From: Burkholderiales bacterium
GTDB lineage: Bacteria; Pseudomonadota; Gammaproteobacteria; Burkholderiales; Burkholderiaceae_E
Direction of reading: 5' to 3'
DNA: 48,211 bases
NCBI GenBank assembly: GCA_947487165.1
Contig: CANKWX010000025.1
Span: 1 to 48,211, forward strand
Shown here: positions 26,816 through 37,003 of the stretch, piece by piece
Numbering within the stretch: position 1 is the first letter of the stretch
Layout of the letters: each line of letters starts with the position of its first letter
The notes under the pieces: generated by a model
What the model was told of the DNA's origin: nothing
The model's input: the letters and a program-made list of their open reading frames with translations, nothing else
Databases searched by the model: none
Translations under genes and position numbers: made by a program

Positions 26816-27334
26816 ATGACCATGACAATGACAAGCACCCCCGAGCAGATGGACGCGCTGTTTGGCCAGCATATGGACGCCGAGTTGTCGAGTGATCTCG
26901 ACAAGACGATGGCCACGATGTCGGCCAACCCGCATATCCTCAACGGCCCTTCCCTGCGCGGTGGTGAAGGTCAGGAAGCCGTGCGGCAGTTTTATGCCAC
27001 TGACCTCATCGGCCAGTTCTTCCCGCCGGATGTGACATTCAAGTCCATCTCCCGCACGCATGGCGAAAACCGACTGGTTGACGAGTTGGTCATTTCGTTC
27101 ACCCACACCCAGAAGATGACTCACATCCTGCCGGGCGTTGCACCGACCGGAAAGCCGGTGTCGGTGATCTTCGTGGTCATCGTCGGATTTGAAGAAGACA
27201 AGGTCGCTTATGAACACATTTACTGGGATCAGGCTTCGATCCTCAAGCAGATCGGTCTGATCGATGGCAGCGGATTACCGATCTCGGGCGCTGAGTCGGC
27301 GCAGCAACTGCTGAAGTTCACGAAGCTCGGCTGA
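26816..27334 (+). CDS. NTF2/SnoaL-like protein
   Basis: A 172-aa protein with the alpha+beta-barrel NTF2-like pattern: a helical N terminus, VRQFYATDLIGQFFPPDVTFKS, RLVDELVISFTHTQKMTHILPG, then VSVIFVVIVGFEEDKVAYEHIYWDQASILKQIGLI. These proteins are cyclases, isomerases or binding proteins, often in catabolic clusters; no specific activity can be named. Three in-frame ATGs (MTMTMT) make the exact start uncertain. The preceding 60 bp are C/A-rich with no Shine-Dalgarno. The stop codon TGA (27332-27334) is the first triplet of the 219-bp direct repeat, so the natural 3' end may have been replaced at the repeat junction. Confidence 0.8.
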   Translation: MTMTMTSTPEQMDALFGQHMDAELSSDLDKTMATMSANPHILNGPSLRGGEGQEAVRQFYATDLIGQFFPPDVTFKSISRTHGENRLVDELVISFTHTQKMTHILPGVAPTGKPVSVIFVVIVGFEEDKVAYEHIYWDQASILKQIGLIDGSGLPISGAESAQQLLKFTKLG

Positions 27335-27579
27335 TCATCAAACCAGAGTTCGGCAACGCCATCGAAGGGCTCGGGCGCGCCGCCGTTTCGCGCCTGCATG
27401 CGGGCCATCTGTTCGCGATCCTGGAGGGTCCTCAACTGCACATAGCGCCTTCCACCATGCGCCTTGGCATGGCTTTTGACCAACGGGGCATGAACCTCAC
27501 GCCAGTAGGTGAGGAACTCCTCCCAGGTGAGCCCGGGTTTTCGACGTAGAAGGTCAGCAGATACTGTCAGCTCGATCAC
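27229..27579 (-). pseudogene. Truncated EthD-domain gene (left copy)
   Basis: The reading frame starts at a likely GTG (27579, VIELTVSADLLRRKPGLTWEEF) and encodes ~82 residues of an EthD-type dimeric alpha/beta-barrel protein. Over 73 residues, 66 are identical to the complete gene at 30939-31307. Homology stops abruptly at 27332, after ELWFDDQ. The last ~34 codons read antisense through the end of the NTF2-like gene. The C-terminal ~40 residues of the family (RFIDLAASPMWMSREWEVI in the intact copy) are missing. I take it as a remnant of a duplication or rearrangement. It could still make a short protein. Confidence 0.8.
27332..27550. repeat. 219-bp direct repeat, left copy
   Basis: This segment aligns without gaps to 31069-31287 in the same orientation, with about 24 mismatches counted by eye (roughly 89% identity). 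It covers the N-terminal part of the EthD gene and begins exactly at the TGA of the NTF2-like gene. The two copies enclose the TRAP transporter genes. Confidence 0.93.
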
Positions 27580-27625
27580 CGAGCCTGCGGGCGACTCACA
27601 ACCCGCCCAGCGCCAGCTTGAACCG

Positions 27626-27664
27626 ACGCACGCCCCCACCGCTTATTGCGCAGGGGGCGTGCGT
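27626..27664. terminator. Strong hairpin after the TRAP operon
   Basis: ACGCACGCCCCC (27626-27637) and GGGGGCGTGCGT (27653-27664) form a perfect 12-bp stem with a 15-nt loop, 8 bp past the dctM stop. It probably ends the TRAP transcript, although no T-tract follows. Confidence 0.65.
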
Positions 27665-30938: not shown

Positions 30939-31307
30939 CTAGCGCATCGAAATAACTTCCCACTCGCGGCTCATCCACATCGGCGAGGCCGCCAGATCAA
31001 TGAACCTGCGCTCGTCTTCAAGCAGTGCCATCGCACCCGCCTTGCCTTCGGCGGAGCGCGGCACCGGTTGATCATCAAACCAGAGCTCGGCAACACCATC
31101 AAAGGGCTCGGGCGCGCCGCCGTTTCGCGCTTGCATTCGGGCCATCTGCTGACGGTCCTGAATGGTCCTCAACTGGACATAGCGTCGGACACCAAGTGCC
31201 TCGGCATGGCTTTTTACCAACGGGGCATGAACCTCACGCCAATAGGTGGAGAACTCATCCCAGGTGAGCCCGGGTTTTCGACGTAGACAGAATGTGAGCT
31301 TGATCAT
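30939..31307 (-). CDS. EthD domain-containing protein (intact copy)
   Basis: A 122-aa protein of the EthD/dimeric ferredoxin-like alpha/beta-barrel group. MIKLTFCLRRKPGLTWDEFSTYWREVHAPLV is the classical opening, followed by RRYVQLRTIQDR, FDGVAELWFDDQ and an ending RRFIDLAASPMWMSREWEVISM. EthD proteins accompany oxygenase or degradation pathways; the biochemical role is poorly known. I start at the ATG at 31307; the longer frame extends into the preceding gene. It lies 44 bp after the MFS gene and may be last in that operon. Its N-terminal part is duplicated at 27332-27550. Confidence 0.88.
   Translation of the reverse strand: MIKLTFCLRRKPGLTWDEFSTYWREVHAPLVKSHAEALGVRRYVQLRTIQDRQQMARMQARNGGAPEPFDGVAELWFDDQPVPRSAEGKAGAMALLEDERRFIDLAASPMWMSREWEVISMR
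31069..31287. repeat. 219-bp direct repeat, right copy
   Basis: Counterpart of 27332-27550, same orientation, no gaps. It lies inside the intact EthD gene, which suggests that this copy is the parent or the undamaged form. Confidence 0.93.
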
Positions 31308-31351
31308 GGGAGGCACCTGAAAATGAACGCGGGTGAGGTCACCGCGTCGAT

Positions 31352-33034
31352 CTACTGGAAAAATCGGGCTGCGCTGATAAGGGTCTTGTACACCCCCCAT
31401 CCCAGGGGAATGCCAACCACCAACCAGGCGGCAACAAGCAGGAGCGGATTGCCTGGACGAGGCCTCACCCCGTCGTCGTCGACAAGCGGTGCAATGCCTT
31501 CGGACTGAGAGCCGATTTCATGCGCGAGCCGCTTTTCAGTGGCCAATTCTTCCTGGGACATGAACCATTTATCGGCAACCGGGCGGATCATCAGATTGCA
31601 GATCAAACCGATGGTCAGCATGCCAACCAAGATGTACATGGTCTGGTTGTAGACCTGCTCCCGCGGTAGCCCCAGACTCAGCTGGTATTCGCGCATGTAG
31701 TTGACCACCACCGGCCCGAGAACACCGGCAGTTGCCCAGGCTGTCAGCAATCGGCCATGGATGGCACCCACCATCTGCGTGCCGAACAGATCTGCCAGAT
31801 AAGCCGGGACTGTGGCAAACCCTCCCCCATACATGCTCAGAATCAAGCAGAGCGCGGCTACGAAAAGCAGTTGATTTCCGGCTGCCGCGCTGATTGGGAT
31901 GCTGGCGTAGAGGATCCCACCCAACACGAAGAACACCACATACGTATTCTTGCGTCCAAGCTTGTCGGACAGGCTTGCCCAGAAAAAGCGGCCGACGATA
32001 TTGAACAGGCTCAGCAAGGCCGCAAAACCGGCCGCAATGCCTGCGATCGTGGTCAGTTGCGACTTGTCCAGATCGGCATAGCGCGTGGATACCCCGATCA
32101 AACTGCCACCGAATACCTCCTGAAGCATCGGCGAAGCCATCCCGATCACACCGATGCCTGCGCTGACATTCATGCAAAGGACCATCCATACCAGCCAGAA
32201 CTGCGGAATCGCCCAGACATTTCTGACGTGCACATGACGAGTGGTGATCATCGCGCTCTGGGGGCTTTTGTGCGAGCGAGACCGTCCCGAAGGCGTCCAA
32301 CCCGAAGGCGGTATGCGGTAGCTCATCGCGCCGCCGATCATAAAAACAAAGTAGCCGAGCGCCATCACCACAAAGGTCTGCCAGACACCCACCTGGTCAG
32401 CCGTCGCAAAGCGCTTCATGAGGTCGGCCGCCAGCGGCGATCCGATCATCGCGCCACCGCCAAAGCCCATGATCGCCATGCCGGTTGCCATGCCTCGGCG
32501 ATCAGGAAACCATTTGATCAACGTGCTGACCGGGCTGATGTAGCCCAGGCCAAGCCCGATCCCGCCGATAACGCCCGAGCCGAGGACCATCAGCCAGAAC
32601 TGATGCAGGTATACGCCAAGCGCCGAAAGGAGCATGCCACCACACCAGCACACCGCACTGACGACACCTGCTTTTCGAGGCCCTTCCCTTTCTAGCCATC
32701 CACCCCAGACCGCCGCGGCACATCCGAGAAAGACAAAAAACAGGGTGTACATCCAGCCGAGTGTCGCGATTGTCCAGTCGCAATGGGTGACGACCAGCAT
32801 CTGGAAAAAGCCGACCTCGGGTCCGCACTTGACCGCCTCCTTGATGCCGACAGCCTTTGACAATGGCAGCCAGAACACAGAGAACCCGTAGGCCATGCCG
32901 ATGCATAAATGAATCGCCAGCGCCGCTGGCGGGACCAGCCACCGATTGAACTGGCTGCTGGCAACGATTCGCTCTTTCGATAGCAGTCCCGGGGTGACGC
33001 CGTCGGTACCTTTGAATTCGAGCGAGGCAATCAA
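31352..33034 (-). CDS. MFS transporter, oxalate/formate antiporter (OFA) type
   Basis: A 560-aa major facilitator with about 12 helices. LVPPAALAIHLCIGMAYGFSVFWLPLSKAVG is typical of the OxlT/OFA family, as is the glycine-rich GGIGLGLGYISPVSTLIKWFPDRRGMATGMAIMGFGGGAMIG. A loop around 240-270 (GWTPSGRSRSHKSP) and a long C-terminal tail make it larger than OxlT (~418 aa). It overlaps the cupin gene by 4 nt (ATGA), so the pair is coupled. Many OFA carriers exchange small dicarboxylates or monocarboxylates; the substrate here is not known. Confidence 0.9.
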   Translation of the reverse strand: MIASLEFKGTDGVTPGLLSKERIVASSQFNRWLVPPAALAIHLCIGMAYGFSVFWLPLSKAVGIKEAVKCGPEVGFFQMLVVTHCDWTIATLGWMYTLFFVFLGCAAAVWGGWLEREGPRKAGVVSAVCWCGGMLLSALGVYLHQFWLMVLGSGVIGGIGLGLGYISPVSTLIKWFPDRRGMATGMAIMGFGGGAMIGSPLAADLMKRFATADQVGVWQTFVVMALGYFVFMIGGAMSYRIPPSGWTPSGRSRSHKSPQSAMITTRHVHVRNVWAIPQFWLVWMVLCMNVSAGIGVIGMASPMLQEVFGGSLIGVSTRYADLDKSQLTTIAGIAAGFAALLSLFNIVGRFFWASLSDKLGRKNTYVVFFVLGGILYASIPISAAAGNQLLFVAALCLILSMYGGGFATVPAYLADLFGTQMVGAIHGRLLTAWATAGVLGPVVVNYMREYQLSLGLPREQVYNQTMYILVGMLTIGLICNLMIRPVADKWFMSQEELATEKRLAHEIGSQSEGIAPLVDDDGVRPRPGNPLLLVAAWLVVGIPLGWGVYKTLISAARFFQ

Positions 33035-33471
33035 GCAATACCCGTCGGCTTGTCGCAGGGCACGGTGCCCATTTCGCCGGGCAGCGTCACCTCAAGCAAT
33101 TCGAATTCGCTCGAGGTGGCGATCTCGTTGTGCTTCATGCCGCCGGGAATCAGCATCGACTCACCGGCCTGAAGCCGAATCGTTTTGCCATCTTCAAACT
33201 CGAGATCGACCCAGCCCTTGAGCGCATAGATGAACTGGGCCTCGCAGACGTGGTAGTGCCAGCCAGTCGGCTGCGACAGGCCTTGACTCGAGGACATGAC
33301 CTGCGCCCGAATCTTGCCACCCGTGGCGGCGGCAACCATCAGATCGCGGTAGGTAAAAAATTCGCGTCGACCCGGCACCACGGGTGCGGTGAGCGATGTG
33401 GCATGGACCATTGACCCGGGGCTGATGCCGCTTGCGATATCGGTTGGTGCGACAGTTGTGATGATGTTCAT
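33031..33471 (-). CDS. Cupin domain protein
   Basis: A 146-aa single-domain cupin. The first metal motif is GWHYHVCEAQFIYALKGWVDLEFEDG and the second is LQAGESMLIPGGMKHNE, giving His ligands as in small mononuclear-metal cupins. The N terminus (PGSMVHATSL, GRREFFTYRDLMVAAATGGKIRAQVM) looks like a short extra strand pair. GGGAGA precedes the ATG. It follows selD after 47 bp and overlaps the MFS gene, which puts it between a selenium-metabolism pair and a transporter. It could be a sensor/binding protein or a small enzyme; the function is unknown. Confidence 0.85.
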   Translation of the reverse strand: MNIITTVAPTDIASGISPGSMVHATSLTAPVVPGRREFFTYRDLMVAAATGGKIRAQVMSSSQGLSQPTGWHYHVCEAQFIYALKGWVDLEFEDGKTIRLQAGESMLIPGGMKHNEIATSSEFELLEVTLPGEMGTVPCDKPTGIA

Positions 33472-33518
33472 TTTTTGTCTCCCTGATGATGTGGGCGTGA
33501 TGGTCGCCTGTCGCCGTA

Positions 33519-34583
33519 TCAGAGCACGACAAGTCGCGGCGATCCAGCCGCCGCCTTCACCGATCCGACCACTGCCGCCTGCTCAAAGCCATGGCGTCTG
33601 AAGACCGCCATCACCGCATCGACTGCTGAAGGGTCGCACGACACCAGCAGACCGCCACTGGTCTGCGGATCAGTCAGCAAGGCCCGATCGAGGAGATCGA
33701 ACCCCTGCGGCAGCGAGACATCGTGGCCATAGCCGGCCCAGTTTCGCTCGGACGCACCGGTGATCAATCCACGAGCGGCCAGCGCCCGCACGCCGTCGAG
33801 TTGCGGCACTGATTGCCAGTCGATCGAGACCTCGCACCTGGCACCACGCGCCAGCTCAAGCGTGTGCCCGGCCAGACCGAAACCGGTGATGTCGGTCAGG
33901 GCATGAACCCCGGGCAAGGCCGCCAGATCGGGGCCCGGGGTATTGAGCTTGGTCGTGGTCGCGATCATCTGCGCATAACCAGCCTCGCCAAGCTCGCCCT
34001 TTTTCAGCGCTGCCGACATCACACCCACGCCGATCGGCTTGCCCAGGATCAACACGTCGCCCGGGCGGGCATCGGCATTTCGCTTGACATGCTTCGGATG
34101 CACCAGGCCGATCGCCACCAGCCCATAAATGGCTTCGACCGAATCGATGGTGTGACCGCCTGCAATCGGAATGCCGGCAGCACGACAGACCGATGCACCG
34201 CCCTCCAAAATTTTGCCGATGGTTTGCGTTGACAGCACATTGATCGGCATGCCAACCAGCGCCAGGGCCATGATCGGCCGCCCGCCCATCGCATAAACGT
34301 CGCTGATCGCATTGGTTGCCGCGATGCGCCCGAACTCGATCGGATCATCGACGATCGGCATGAAAAAATCGGTGGTGGCGATCAGTGCCTGTTCGTCATT
34401 GAGCTGATAGACCGCTGCGTCATCGGCGGTCTCGATGCCGACCAGCAGTTCTTTCGGGACGGGCATCGCCACCGTGCCCTTGAGGATCTCGGACAGCACG
34501 CCTGGGGCAATCTTGCAACCGCAACCGCCGCCATGCGACAACGAGGTCAGGCGCGGCTCGGTCAGCGTTTCAGGTGAATTCAT
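33519..34583 (-). CDS. selD: Selenide, water dikinase (selenophosphate synthetase; SelD/SenC)
   Basis: A 354-aa enzyme that makes selenophosphate from selenide and ATP, the activated selenium donor. It matches SelD along its length: LSHGGGCGCKIAPGVL with the catalytic Cys (encoded TGC, not Sec), DDAAVYQLNDEQALIATTDFFMPIVDDPIEFGRIAATNAISDVYAMGGRPIMA, AGGHTIDSVEAIYGL, LTDITGFGLAGH and TDPQTSGGLLVS. AAGGAG stands before the ATG. It lies 36 bp after the SenB-type gene, which suggests that it serves as SenC in selenosugar/selenoneine-type synthesis. selA, selB and selU are not in the window, so wider roles cannot be judged. Confidence 0.95.
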   Translation of the reverse strand: MNSPETLTEPRLTSLSHGGGCGCKIAPGVLSEILKGTVAMPVPKELLVGIETADDAAVYQLNDEQALIATTDFFMPIVDDPIEFGRIAATNAISDVYAMGGRPIMALALVGMPINVLSTQTIGKILEGGASVCRAAGIPIAGGHTIDSVEAIYGLVAIGLVHPKHVKRNADARPGDVLILGKPIGVGVMSAALKKGELGEAGYAQMIATTTKLNTPGPDLAALPGVHALTDITGFGLAGHTLELARGARCEVSIDWQSVPQLDGVRALAARGLITGASERNWAGYGHDVSLPQGFDLLDRALLTDPQTSGGLLVSCDPSAVDAVMAVFRRHGFEQAAVVGSVKAAAGSPRLVVL

Positions 34584-34619
34584 GGTGACTCCTTCATTGA
34601 TCGACAGACGGGTGAGGCC

Positions 34620-35585
34620 TTATGAGTGACGCCTGATGAGGGACGCGACAAGGCTCTGCACTGCGGCCCGCTCACGCGCTGGCTCGAACAAGGGCGCACG
34701 GGCATCGCACTCGGCTTTCAAGCCTGCGAGCATACCGGGAAGGTCGCGGGCTGATTCGAGCAGGCTGGCCAGCGCGAGATCGTTGCCGACCGGGAAATAG
34801 CCTGTGTAGTCAGGGCCGAGCAGACCGATGTTGCCGTCGATGCCAGAAGCCAGCACAGGCGTACCGCTTCGCACCGCCTCGACCACCACATGGGCACCGC
34901 CTTCCATGCGGCTCGGGTGCACCAGGACATGGGCTGCCTGAATGCGCCGTCGCACGGCCTGATGCGGCAGGGGGCCGAGCCAGCGGTACTGCGGGCATTG
35001 CTGCATGAGCGCCTGCGCCTGCTCACCGAACGCGGGATCGAGCGCAGAACCGATATGGTCGAGCAGGATGTCATCGCGATCGACCAGGCGGCGCGCCGCG
35101 CTGAAAAAAGTCTGCGGCGATTTTTCGGCGCGCAGATGACCGACCATGAGCGCGCGTAGATGCCGATCGGTGTGCGGCAGCGCCTTGCGTGGCGAACTGG
35201 ATTGCAGGATCACGCTTGTTTTTTCCCGGTCCTGGGGCGCCAGACGCTGCGCACCGAGTTCGTTGAGGACGACCAGCGAATCGGCAAGCCGGATCGACTG
35301 CTTCGCAGAGTCATCTCTGGCGATATCCCGATAGAGATCGGTTCCGGTCAAAACCAGCAGGATCGGCCGATCAGGATGCGTCGATCTCCAGGCGGCCACC
35401 GAGCCCGCCGAGCGGCGTGCATGCATGGCGATCAGCAATGATTCGGGCCCGCCTTCCCACGCCTGGCAAAGCCTGACACGGTAAGTTCGCGACAGGATTC
35501 GCTCCCATCGATGCGCAGTCTGCCAATTGCCGTTGTTGGCATCGGCCAGAGCAGGGGTGACGATGACGATGTCGCTTCTGTCCAC
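34620..35585 (-). CDS. senB: Selenosugar synthase-like glycosyltransferase (SenB, TIGR04348 family)
   Basis: A 321-aa GT-B glycosyltransferase. VTPALADANNGNWQTAHRWERIL near the N terminus is the signature of the family typified by SenB, which in selenoneine synthesis joins selenophosphate-derived selenium to a UDP-sugar to form a selenosugar. The second Rossmann half has RALMVGHLRAEKSPQTFFSAARRL and the nucleotide-sugar region VLVHPSRMEGGAHVVVEAVRSGTPVLASGIDGNIGLLG. The immediate downstream selD (36 bp) supports the assignment. senA, the partner that makes the selenium-histidine bond, is not adjacent: the gene upstream is a divergent CoA-transferase. The activity is from family knowledge, not visible directly. 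Confidence 0.88.
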   Translation of the reverse strand: MDRSDIVIVTPALADANNGNWQTAHRWERILSRTYRVRLCQAWEGGPESLLIAMHARRSAGSVAAWRSTHPDRPILLVLTGTDLYRDIARDDSAKQSIRLADSLVVLNELGAQRLAPQDREKTSVILQSSSPRKALPHTDRHLRALMVGHLRAEKSPQTFFSAARRLVDRDDILLDHIGSALDPAFGEQAQALMQQCPQYRWLGPLPHQAVRRRIQAAHVLVHPSRMEGGAHVVVEAVRSGTPVLASGIDGNIGLLGPDYTGYFPVGNDLALASLLESARDLPGMLAGLKAECDARAPLFEPARERAAVQSLVASLIRRHS

Positions 35586-35749
35586 CGCCGCAGTCTAGCG
35601 TCATCGGACGAAGCGCCGACCGAAGAGGCCCGCGAAGGCATCCAGGTCTTCCCGGTCATCCTGTGGAATAAGATACCGTCACCGCGCATCGGGTCAATCC
35701 TCATCGACTCGATCGACGTCATTGAATAACCATCAAAACAGGAGATACC

Positions 35750-37003
35750 TTGAACGCTGCCACCCTTCCCGAAAATACCGGCCCACTGAACGGGATTCGC
35801 GTCCTCGACCTGTCTCGCGTCCTGGCAGCCCCCTTTTGCGTGCAGACCCTCGGCGACCTCGGCGCCGACGTCATCAAGATCGAGCGCCCCAACATCGGCG
35901 ACGAATCGCGCCAATGGGGTCCTCCCTGGTTCAAGAACGACAAGGGCGAGCAGACCAAGGAGTCGGCCTATTTCATGTCGGCCAACCGCAACAAGCGTTC
36001 GGTGGCGATTGATCTGGCCAGCCCCGATGGGCAGGAAGTGATCCGCAAGCTCGCGATGAGCGCCGACATCTGCATTGAAAACTTCAAGGTCGGCGACCTG
36101 GCGCGCTACGGGCTTGATGCCGCGTCGCTGCGAAAACTCAACCCGCGCCTGATCTACTGCTCGGTGACCGGCTTCGGCCAGACCGGCCCATGGGCCGAGC
36201 GCCCCGGCTATGACTATCTGTTCCAGGGCATGGGCGGACTGATGAGCGTGACCGGCGAGCGCGACGATCTGCCAGGCGGTGGCCCGCAGCGCCTGGGCGT
36301 GCCGCTGGTCGATCTGTCCACCGGCATGTATGCCACGGTAGCCATCCTGGCCGCGCTGCATCACCGCACGGTCACCGGCGAAGGCCAGCACCTCGATATC
36401 TCGCTGATGTCGACCGTCATGGCGATCAGCTCGGGGCAGTTGTCGAACCATATGGTCGGTGGCGCGATTCCGGGACGCACCGGCAACCATGCTCCCAACA
36501 TCACACCCTACGGCGTCTACCCCTGCTCCGACGGGCTGCTGATCATTGCCAGCGCCAATCAGAAGCAGTTCGTGACCCTGTGCAAGGCGCTCGAGCATCC
36601 CGAGTGGGGCGACGATCCTCGCTTCAAGGACAACGCCTCACGCATCGCGCATCGTCACGAACTTGGCGAGCTCTTTGGCTCGGTCACGCGTACCCAGACC
36701 CGCGAGCATTGGGAGACGCTGTTTACGAAAGTCGGCGTGCCGGCCGGGCCGATCAACAACTACGCGCAAGCGCTCGAGCATCCTCAAGTGAAGCATCTGG
36801 GCACGCGTATCGGCATCCCCCATCCGCTGGGTGGCGAGGCGCCTGGCATCGGCAGTCCGATCCGCATGTCGAAGACTCCGGTGTCCTATCGCCGCCCTCC
36901 CCCGATGCTCGGCCAGCACACGCATGAAGTGCTGCGTGAACTCGGCCTGGATCAAGCCGCGATCGACGCATTGACCCAATCCGGCACCATTTCCTCAACC
37001 TGA
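35750..37003 (+). CDS. CaiB/BaiF family (class III) CoA-transferase, TTG start
   Basis: A 417-aa enzyme that moves CoA between carboxylic acids. GIRVLDLSRVLAAPFCVQTLGDLGADVIKIERP, the ANRNKRSVAIDLASPDG segment and YCSVTGFGQTGPWAERPGYDYLFQGMGG are typical. The catalytic Asp is in GVPLVDLSTGMYATVAILAALHHR (about 187). The start is a TTG at 35750, well supported by AGGAGA 5 nt upstream; no ATG fits. It is divergent from senB with 164 bp between. The substrate is unknown; the acyl-CoA genes elsewhere in the window suggest organic acid metabolism. Confidence 0.93.
   Translation: MNAATLPENTGPLNGIRVLDLSRVLAAPFCVQTLGDLGADVIKIERPNIGDESRQWGPPWFKNDKGEQTKESAYFMSANRNKRSVAIDLASPDGQEVIRKLAMSADICIENFKVGDLARYGLDAASLRKLNPRLIYCSVTGFGQTGPWAERPGYDYLFQGMGGLMSVTGERDDLPGGGPQRLGVPLVDLSTGMYATVAILAALHHRTVTGEGQHLDISLMSTVMAISSGQLSNHMVGGAIPGRTGNHAPNITPYGVYPCSDGLLIIASANQKQFVTLCKALEHPEWGDDPRFKDNASRIAHRHELGELFGSVTRTQTREHWETLFTKVGVPAGPINNYAQALEHPQVKHLGTRIGIPHPLGGEAPGIGSPIRMSKTPVSYRRPPPMLGQHTHEVLRELGLDQAAIDALTQSGTISST

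Follow-up and report, generated by a model that had tools for sequence, protein, structure and literature searches.

A senB-selD pair in a Burkholderiales genome that appears to have lost senA and its neighbouring transporter genes by deletion

The senB-selD cluster described here reads, by comparison with relatives of the same genus, as a selenoneine (sen) cluster that has lost senA and a PhnD-type ABC transporter by deletion. It lies in the window, the whole stretch of 48,211 nucleotides that was analysed, which is contig 25 of the genome G000 (3.78 Mb, 140 contigs, 98.3% complete). The predicted senB-selD pair that is intact but lacks SenA is real: SenA is gone from the locus and is not found in the rest of the assembly. 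In two published accounts, SelD of the sen family makes selenophosphate and SenB makes selenosugars from UDP-sugars (PMC9814287, PMC10891094). In the publications consulted, SenB provides an intermediate towards selenoneine. The selenosugar made by the retained SenB-SelD pair may well serve here as an end product or a selenium sink, a reading that is put forward tentatively. The locus comprises the following features.

34620-35585, minus strand: senB, selenosugar synthase (Se-glycosyltransferase); TIGR04348, 438.5 bits, cut-off 300
33519-34583, minus strand: selD (senC), selenophosphate synthetase; two SelD models, 532 and 423 bits, each above cut-off
33031-33471, minus strand: small metal-type cupin; Cupin_2
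31352-33034, minus strand: OFA-type MFS carrier; MFS_1, MFS_OXA tail domain
about 30939-31307, minus strand: EthD-family protein; EthD family match
35586-35749, intergenic: junction at which senA and the PhnD-type ABC genes sit in G052; locus alignment
35750-37003, plus strand: CaiB-type family III CoA-transferase; family match, far flank of the senA-ABC block in G052

Profile searches and ORF coordinates place senB, selD, the cupin, the OFA-type MFS and EthD genes in line on the minus strand, as originally predicted. Coordinates also reproduce the predicted gaps of 36 (senB to selD), 47, -4 and 44 bp, provided that the internal Met at 31307 is taken as the EthD start; the longest EthD ORF reaches 31400 and would overlap the MFS gene. 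The glycosyltransferase signature and the SelD catalytic Cys that had been noted are both present, as EGGAHV in SenB and as GGGCGCK, read straight from the translation, in SelD, which is the sole SelD over cut-off in the genome. The gene past senB is divergent, as had been said, and the orthologues of this CaiB-type CoA-transferase in G048, G054 and G052 are 97-99% identical. The MFS protein falls below every transporter cut-off (SfMCT, 291.7 against 320; oxalate/formate models, 142.7 against 374.85 and 122.1 against 335); its MFS_OXA tail domain scores 42 against a cut-off of 24. Scans of the window find promoters (1 versus 1.6) and terminators (3 versus 4.2) at or below shuffle level, so that co-transcription is neither shown nor excluded; the sole promoter-like site, at 35697-35670 on the minus strand, lies ahead of senB. 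Two EthD copies (27229-27639 and 30939-31400) are 89% identical over 223 bp and have TRAP transporter genes between them. This TRAP block is missing from the stretches fetched from G052 and G054, and in sequence it looks like an insertion with duplication.

The same-genus relative G052 (locus L086) retains senA. There a CaiB gene, two ABC permease genes, an ABC ATPase gene, the gene for a PhnD-type binding protein and senA, all on the minus strand, are followed by senB and selD on the plus strand, with the cupin gene about 0.8 kb beyond selD. The senA gene is divergent from senB and sits at the spot that matches the window junction. In G000, G048 (L083) and G054 (L084, L153), senB comes straight after CaiB, and the intervening senA and ABC genes are missing; absence in three separate assemblies makes an assembly error unlikely. 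The G054 intergenic region matches the CaiB side of G052 over 144 bp at 81%, and its next 55 bp match the senA 5' end and the senA-senB gap of G052 at 91% (E 1e-15). The resulting stub amounts to about the ten first codons of senA, if senA starts at an internal Met, and on this alignment it is taken as the scar of the senA deletion. G000 and G048 have junctions that can be aligned gap-free and that lack the senA stub; one loss with a later second change, and two losses, are both possible. The PhnD-type ABC genes (binding protein, ATPase and two permeases; L086:5148-8592 in G052) were lost along with senA in the window lineage. The transporter is a candidate for the import of selenium or hercynine. 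Among the best 80 of 502 named SenB loci, 34 have PhnD close to senB (one of the 34 at 33%), mostly with senA or egtD.

No SenA is found in the window, as predicted, or in the whole 98.3%-complete assembly (SenA model, E 1e-40, cut-off 420). It had been suggested that senA might lie elsewhere in the genome; the whole-genome search rules this out for the assembly, as the lone match to the SenA model, on contig C45, has 325 bits and is an EgtB (TIGR03440, 516.7 bits, cut-off 360). Behind this gene lies the start of an EgtD (model positions 2-71 of 301), after which the contig ends. SelA and SelU are both over cut-off in G000, and no tRNA is found in the 12 kb of contig C33 that hold selA. Besides EgtB, the genome has five places with an FGE domain. 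No OvoA-length protein is matched in G000 by the SenA model at E 1e-40, a model that does detect proteins in 700-880 aa frames of other genomes.

The presence of EgtB with an EgtD start behind it, and of an EgtB-like protein in G048 and G054 as well, favours a takeover in which EgtB replaced SenA, placing the SenB selenosugar on hercynine so that selenoneine is still made. This is unlikely on the residues. For this comparison 80 SenA-side and 19 EgtB-side sequences were aligned, each assigned to its side by the better BLAST score and with spans of fewer than 300 residues dropped; 26 columns separate SenA from 16 EgtBs, the focal three (G000, G048, G054) being left out. At these columns the EgtBs of the focal three agree with the EgtB majority at 25 and with SenA at none, and the remaining column has a third residue; this rules out an EgtB shifted towards SenA. 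The genomes G114 and G139 and the records behind L179, L183 and L201, with SenB-SelD and no EgtB-like match (SenA model, E 1e-40), also speak against a takeover. A promiscuous EgtB could nevertheless finish selenoneine, which would count against a selenosugar product.

SenB of the window matches four PDB sequences at E 1e-10 (8k5u, 8jjn, 8jjq, 8fbx), named Se glycosyltransferase, TIGR04348 family glycosyltransferase or SenB. In the alignment it has N20, T23, R152, K155, E228 and E236 together with the EGGAHV signature. Published work on Variovorax SenB reports N20, T23, R155, K158, E231 and E239 as important (PMC10891094, PMC10702425). The equation of R152, K155, E228 and E236 with the published R155, K158, E231 and E239 comes from our own alignment. 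The gene is full length and free of stops in G000, G048 and G054, and codon comparisons indicate that it is intact and under purifying selection among these senA-less genomes. Its dN/dS is 0.165 (G000-G048), 0.134 (G000-G054) and 0.204 (G048-G054), and 0.15-0.18 against the senA-bearing G052. Non-synonymous changes number 14 of 42 (G000-G048, p 4e-8), 24 of 79 (G000-G054, p 9e-16) and 30 of 76 (G048-G054, p 3e-10), where about 74% are expected. G000 and G048 share a junction, so that their SenB differences should postdate the loss of senA. The SenB dS between these two is 0.12, below that of CaiB (0.34) and SelD (0.48), which hints at recombination and weakens dN/dS as an argument.

SenB dN/dS exceeds that of SelD (0.04-0.09) and CaiB (0.02-0.04), with G052 included or left out, though it lies within the range of a 103-aa ORF and MobA. 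This excess, and a loss young enough that G054 retains the stub of senA, would suit a decaying cluster in which senB is a relic of recent senA loss with no selenosugar role left. Decay of this kind is doubtful in view of a SenB that is full length in three genomes, the significant purifying selection among them, and the presence of SenB-SelD without SenA in other lineages.

On the preferred reading, in which the selenosugar step is retained, SelD would convert selenide to selenophosphate, and SenB would join selenium to a UDP-sugar and free the selenosugar. Without SenA, the usual route from selenosugar to selenoneine would be shut. The selenosugar itself could then be what benefits the cell, which has SelA, SelU and EgtB besides: it could trap or store reactive selenide, or act as a small redox-active selenol. 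Expression and activity of SenB are inferred, as is the fate of the selenosugar. The constraint on senA-less SenB, its kept residues and its recurrence in other Burkholderiales favour a working senB-selD pair. SelD is required anyway for SelA and SelU, so that only senB argues for the retained selenosugar step. A further proposal, possible but rather speculative, is that a stand-alone SenB-SelD pathway, with free selenosugar or a simple derivative as its end product, has been retained by selection where Burkholderiales repeatedly lost senA.

One of the two options in the original prediction was a different selenium compound; in the form considered here, the cupin (perhaps with EthD) would act on the selenosugar to give a new metabolite and the MFS carrier would move it. 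The predicted senB-selD pair without SenA stands; the cupin and MFS as conserved selenium parts do not, and such a metabolite now appears very unlikely. Tight spacing of senB, selD and cupin would fit it, as would the fact that in G000, G048, G054 and G052 no known gene comes between selD and the cupin, whose metal-type residues are intact. Against this, the cupin stands beside sen genes with senA (G052) as well as without it, and homologues in the family lie away from sen. Residues H72, H74, Q79 and H114 show no variation among the 15 aligned homologues, whether or not these lie close to sen, so that nothing marks the cupin as selenium-specific. Homologues with 72-81% identity occur in six family genomes: in G023, G027, G029, G030 and G032 they are on contigs other than that of senB, and in the sixth, G053, SenB is missing. 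No sen genes are present in the stretches fetched around these six homologues. In two other loci, cupin homologues (77% identity) lie ahead of a SelA-like gene with 38-41% identity to SelA (L157:1798-3418, L158:7864-9457).

The MFS gene adjoins the cupin gene in none of three close relatives. In G054 the order is SenB-SelD-cupin-EthD, with EthD directly after the cupin; in G048 SenB-SelD-cupin is followed by an SDR on the opposite strand; and in G052 the MFS gene is about 10 kb from the cupin and adjoins a ligase gene. Among the best 80 of 502 confirmed named SenB loci (tblastn at E 1e-8; some loci cut by contig ends), a cupin is found in the fetched stretch of one, L170, evidently the record of G048 itself, and MFS or EthD in none. 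A conserved cupin-MFS-EthD set is thus ruled out, and a recurrence of cupin-MFS next to TIGR04348 proteins is seen neither in the three relatives nor in these 80 loci. Judged by gene order, the MFS carrier is a neighbour and not a conserved part. The cupin, EthD and MFS genes, which lie downstream of selD, are regarded as passengers or as possible helpers.

SenB-SelD pairs without SenA recur beyond the window genome. Within the family, SenB is found in 39 of 74 genomes and SenA over cut-off in 29, all 29 of which also have SenB. Ten SenB genomes are therefore without SenA over cut-off. In three of these, which are set aside, senB lies close to a contig end: G049 (75% complete), which has a SenA piece at the end of its contig, and G013 and G024 (77-78% complete). 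This leaves G000, G048, G054, G025, G042, G070 and G071. In a sample of the order, TIGR04348 is matched at E 1e-60 in 120 of 399 genomes, 118 over cut-off. Of the 111 TIGR04348 genomes beyond the family, 74 have SenA over cut-off (41/61 and 33/50). The other 37, sorted by position and frame length, comprise 12 with a sub-cut-off relative that adjoins senB or lies no more than about 6 kb away, six with only an OvoA-length frame, four with an EgtB-like protein elsewhere and 15 with no match. Fifteen loci were fetched from the latter 25 genomes. SelD lies beside SenB in two (G114, G139; one contig each, no SenA-like match at E 1e-40) and is absent from the other 13 loci, where support for a selenium pathway is weaker. 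G281 and G400, with SenA elsewhere, likewise have no adjoining SelD. L179, L183 and L201, records given without completeness, likewise combine adjacent SenB-SelD with the lack of any SenA-like match at E 1e-40; SelD of L179 is in two overlapping pieces. L201 is from Tepidicella baoligensis B18-50, is not marked as a MAG, and has PhnD-type ABC genes as well as senB and selD.

The 80 best of 502 named loci include SenA in 61, SelD in 61 (five only at 31-36% identity) and EgtD in 35. For the 19 loci without SenA in the fetched stretch, SenA is over cut-off elsewhere in seven genomes; the remaining 12 genomes have none over cut-off, three of them with partial SenA-like pieces. Neither ORF clustering nor Pfam reveals a shared replacement neighbour in senA-less loci. 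Besides SenB and SelD, clustering returned an ATPase-like cluster, synteny within SelD-less loci and, by our reading, antisense shadow ORFs. Pfam was run on ten ORFs, nine from SenB loci without SenA (L183, L201, L207, L266, L272) and the ligase of L153, and gave no common partner; three have no family, and some are probably not real genes. Loci L267-L271, L274-L278 and others of the same order encode TIGR04348 proteins in which all six catalytic residues examined are present, and have no SelD in the fetched stretch. In L205, L228, L235, L237 and L242, EgtD immediately precedes SenB on the same strand and SenA is over cut-off elsewhere in the genome, an arrangement that reads as a rearranged sen cluster.

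No account of SenB without SenA was found in the literature searched, though one may be in print. If the last enzyme is lost yet SenB is conserved, the selenosugar may matter in itself, or a different enzyme may use it. Sister genomes with and without senA form a natural experiment, and T. baoligensis B18-50 could be tested in culture.

Three known systems offer comparison. Ovoselenol, named in PMC13188914 with a citation of Kayrouz 2024 (Nat Chem), is another microbial selenium metabolite and is reportedly made with an enzyme of the SenA/OvoA superfamily; G000 differs in having no OvoA-length match (SenA model, E 1e-40). The ergothioneine pathway (EgtB, EgtD) is shared in so far as G000 has EgtB and the start of EgtD on C45, but that pathway uses sulfur, and EgtB does not adjoin senB in G000. 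Unlike the sen cluster of Variovorax paradoxus (SenA, SenB, SenC/SelD), the window is without senA and without the PhnD-type ABC genes that accompany senA in G052. With that cluster the window shares the tandem SenB-SelD arrangement and the key residues (PMC9814287, PMC10891094, PMC10702425).
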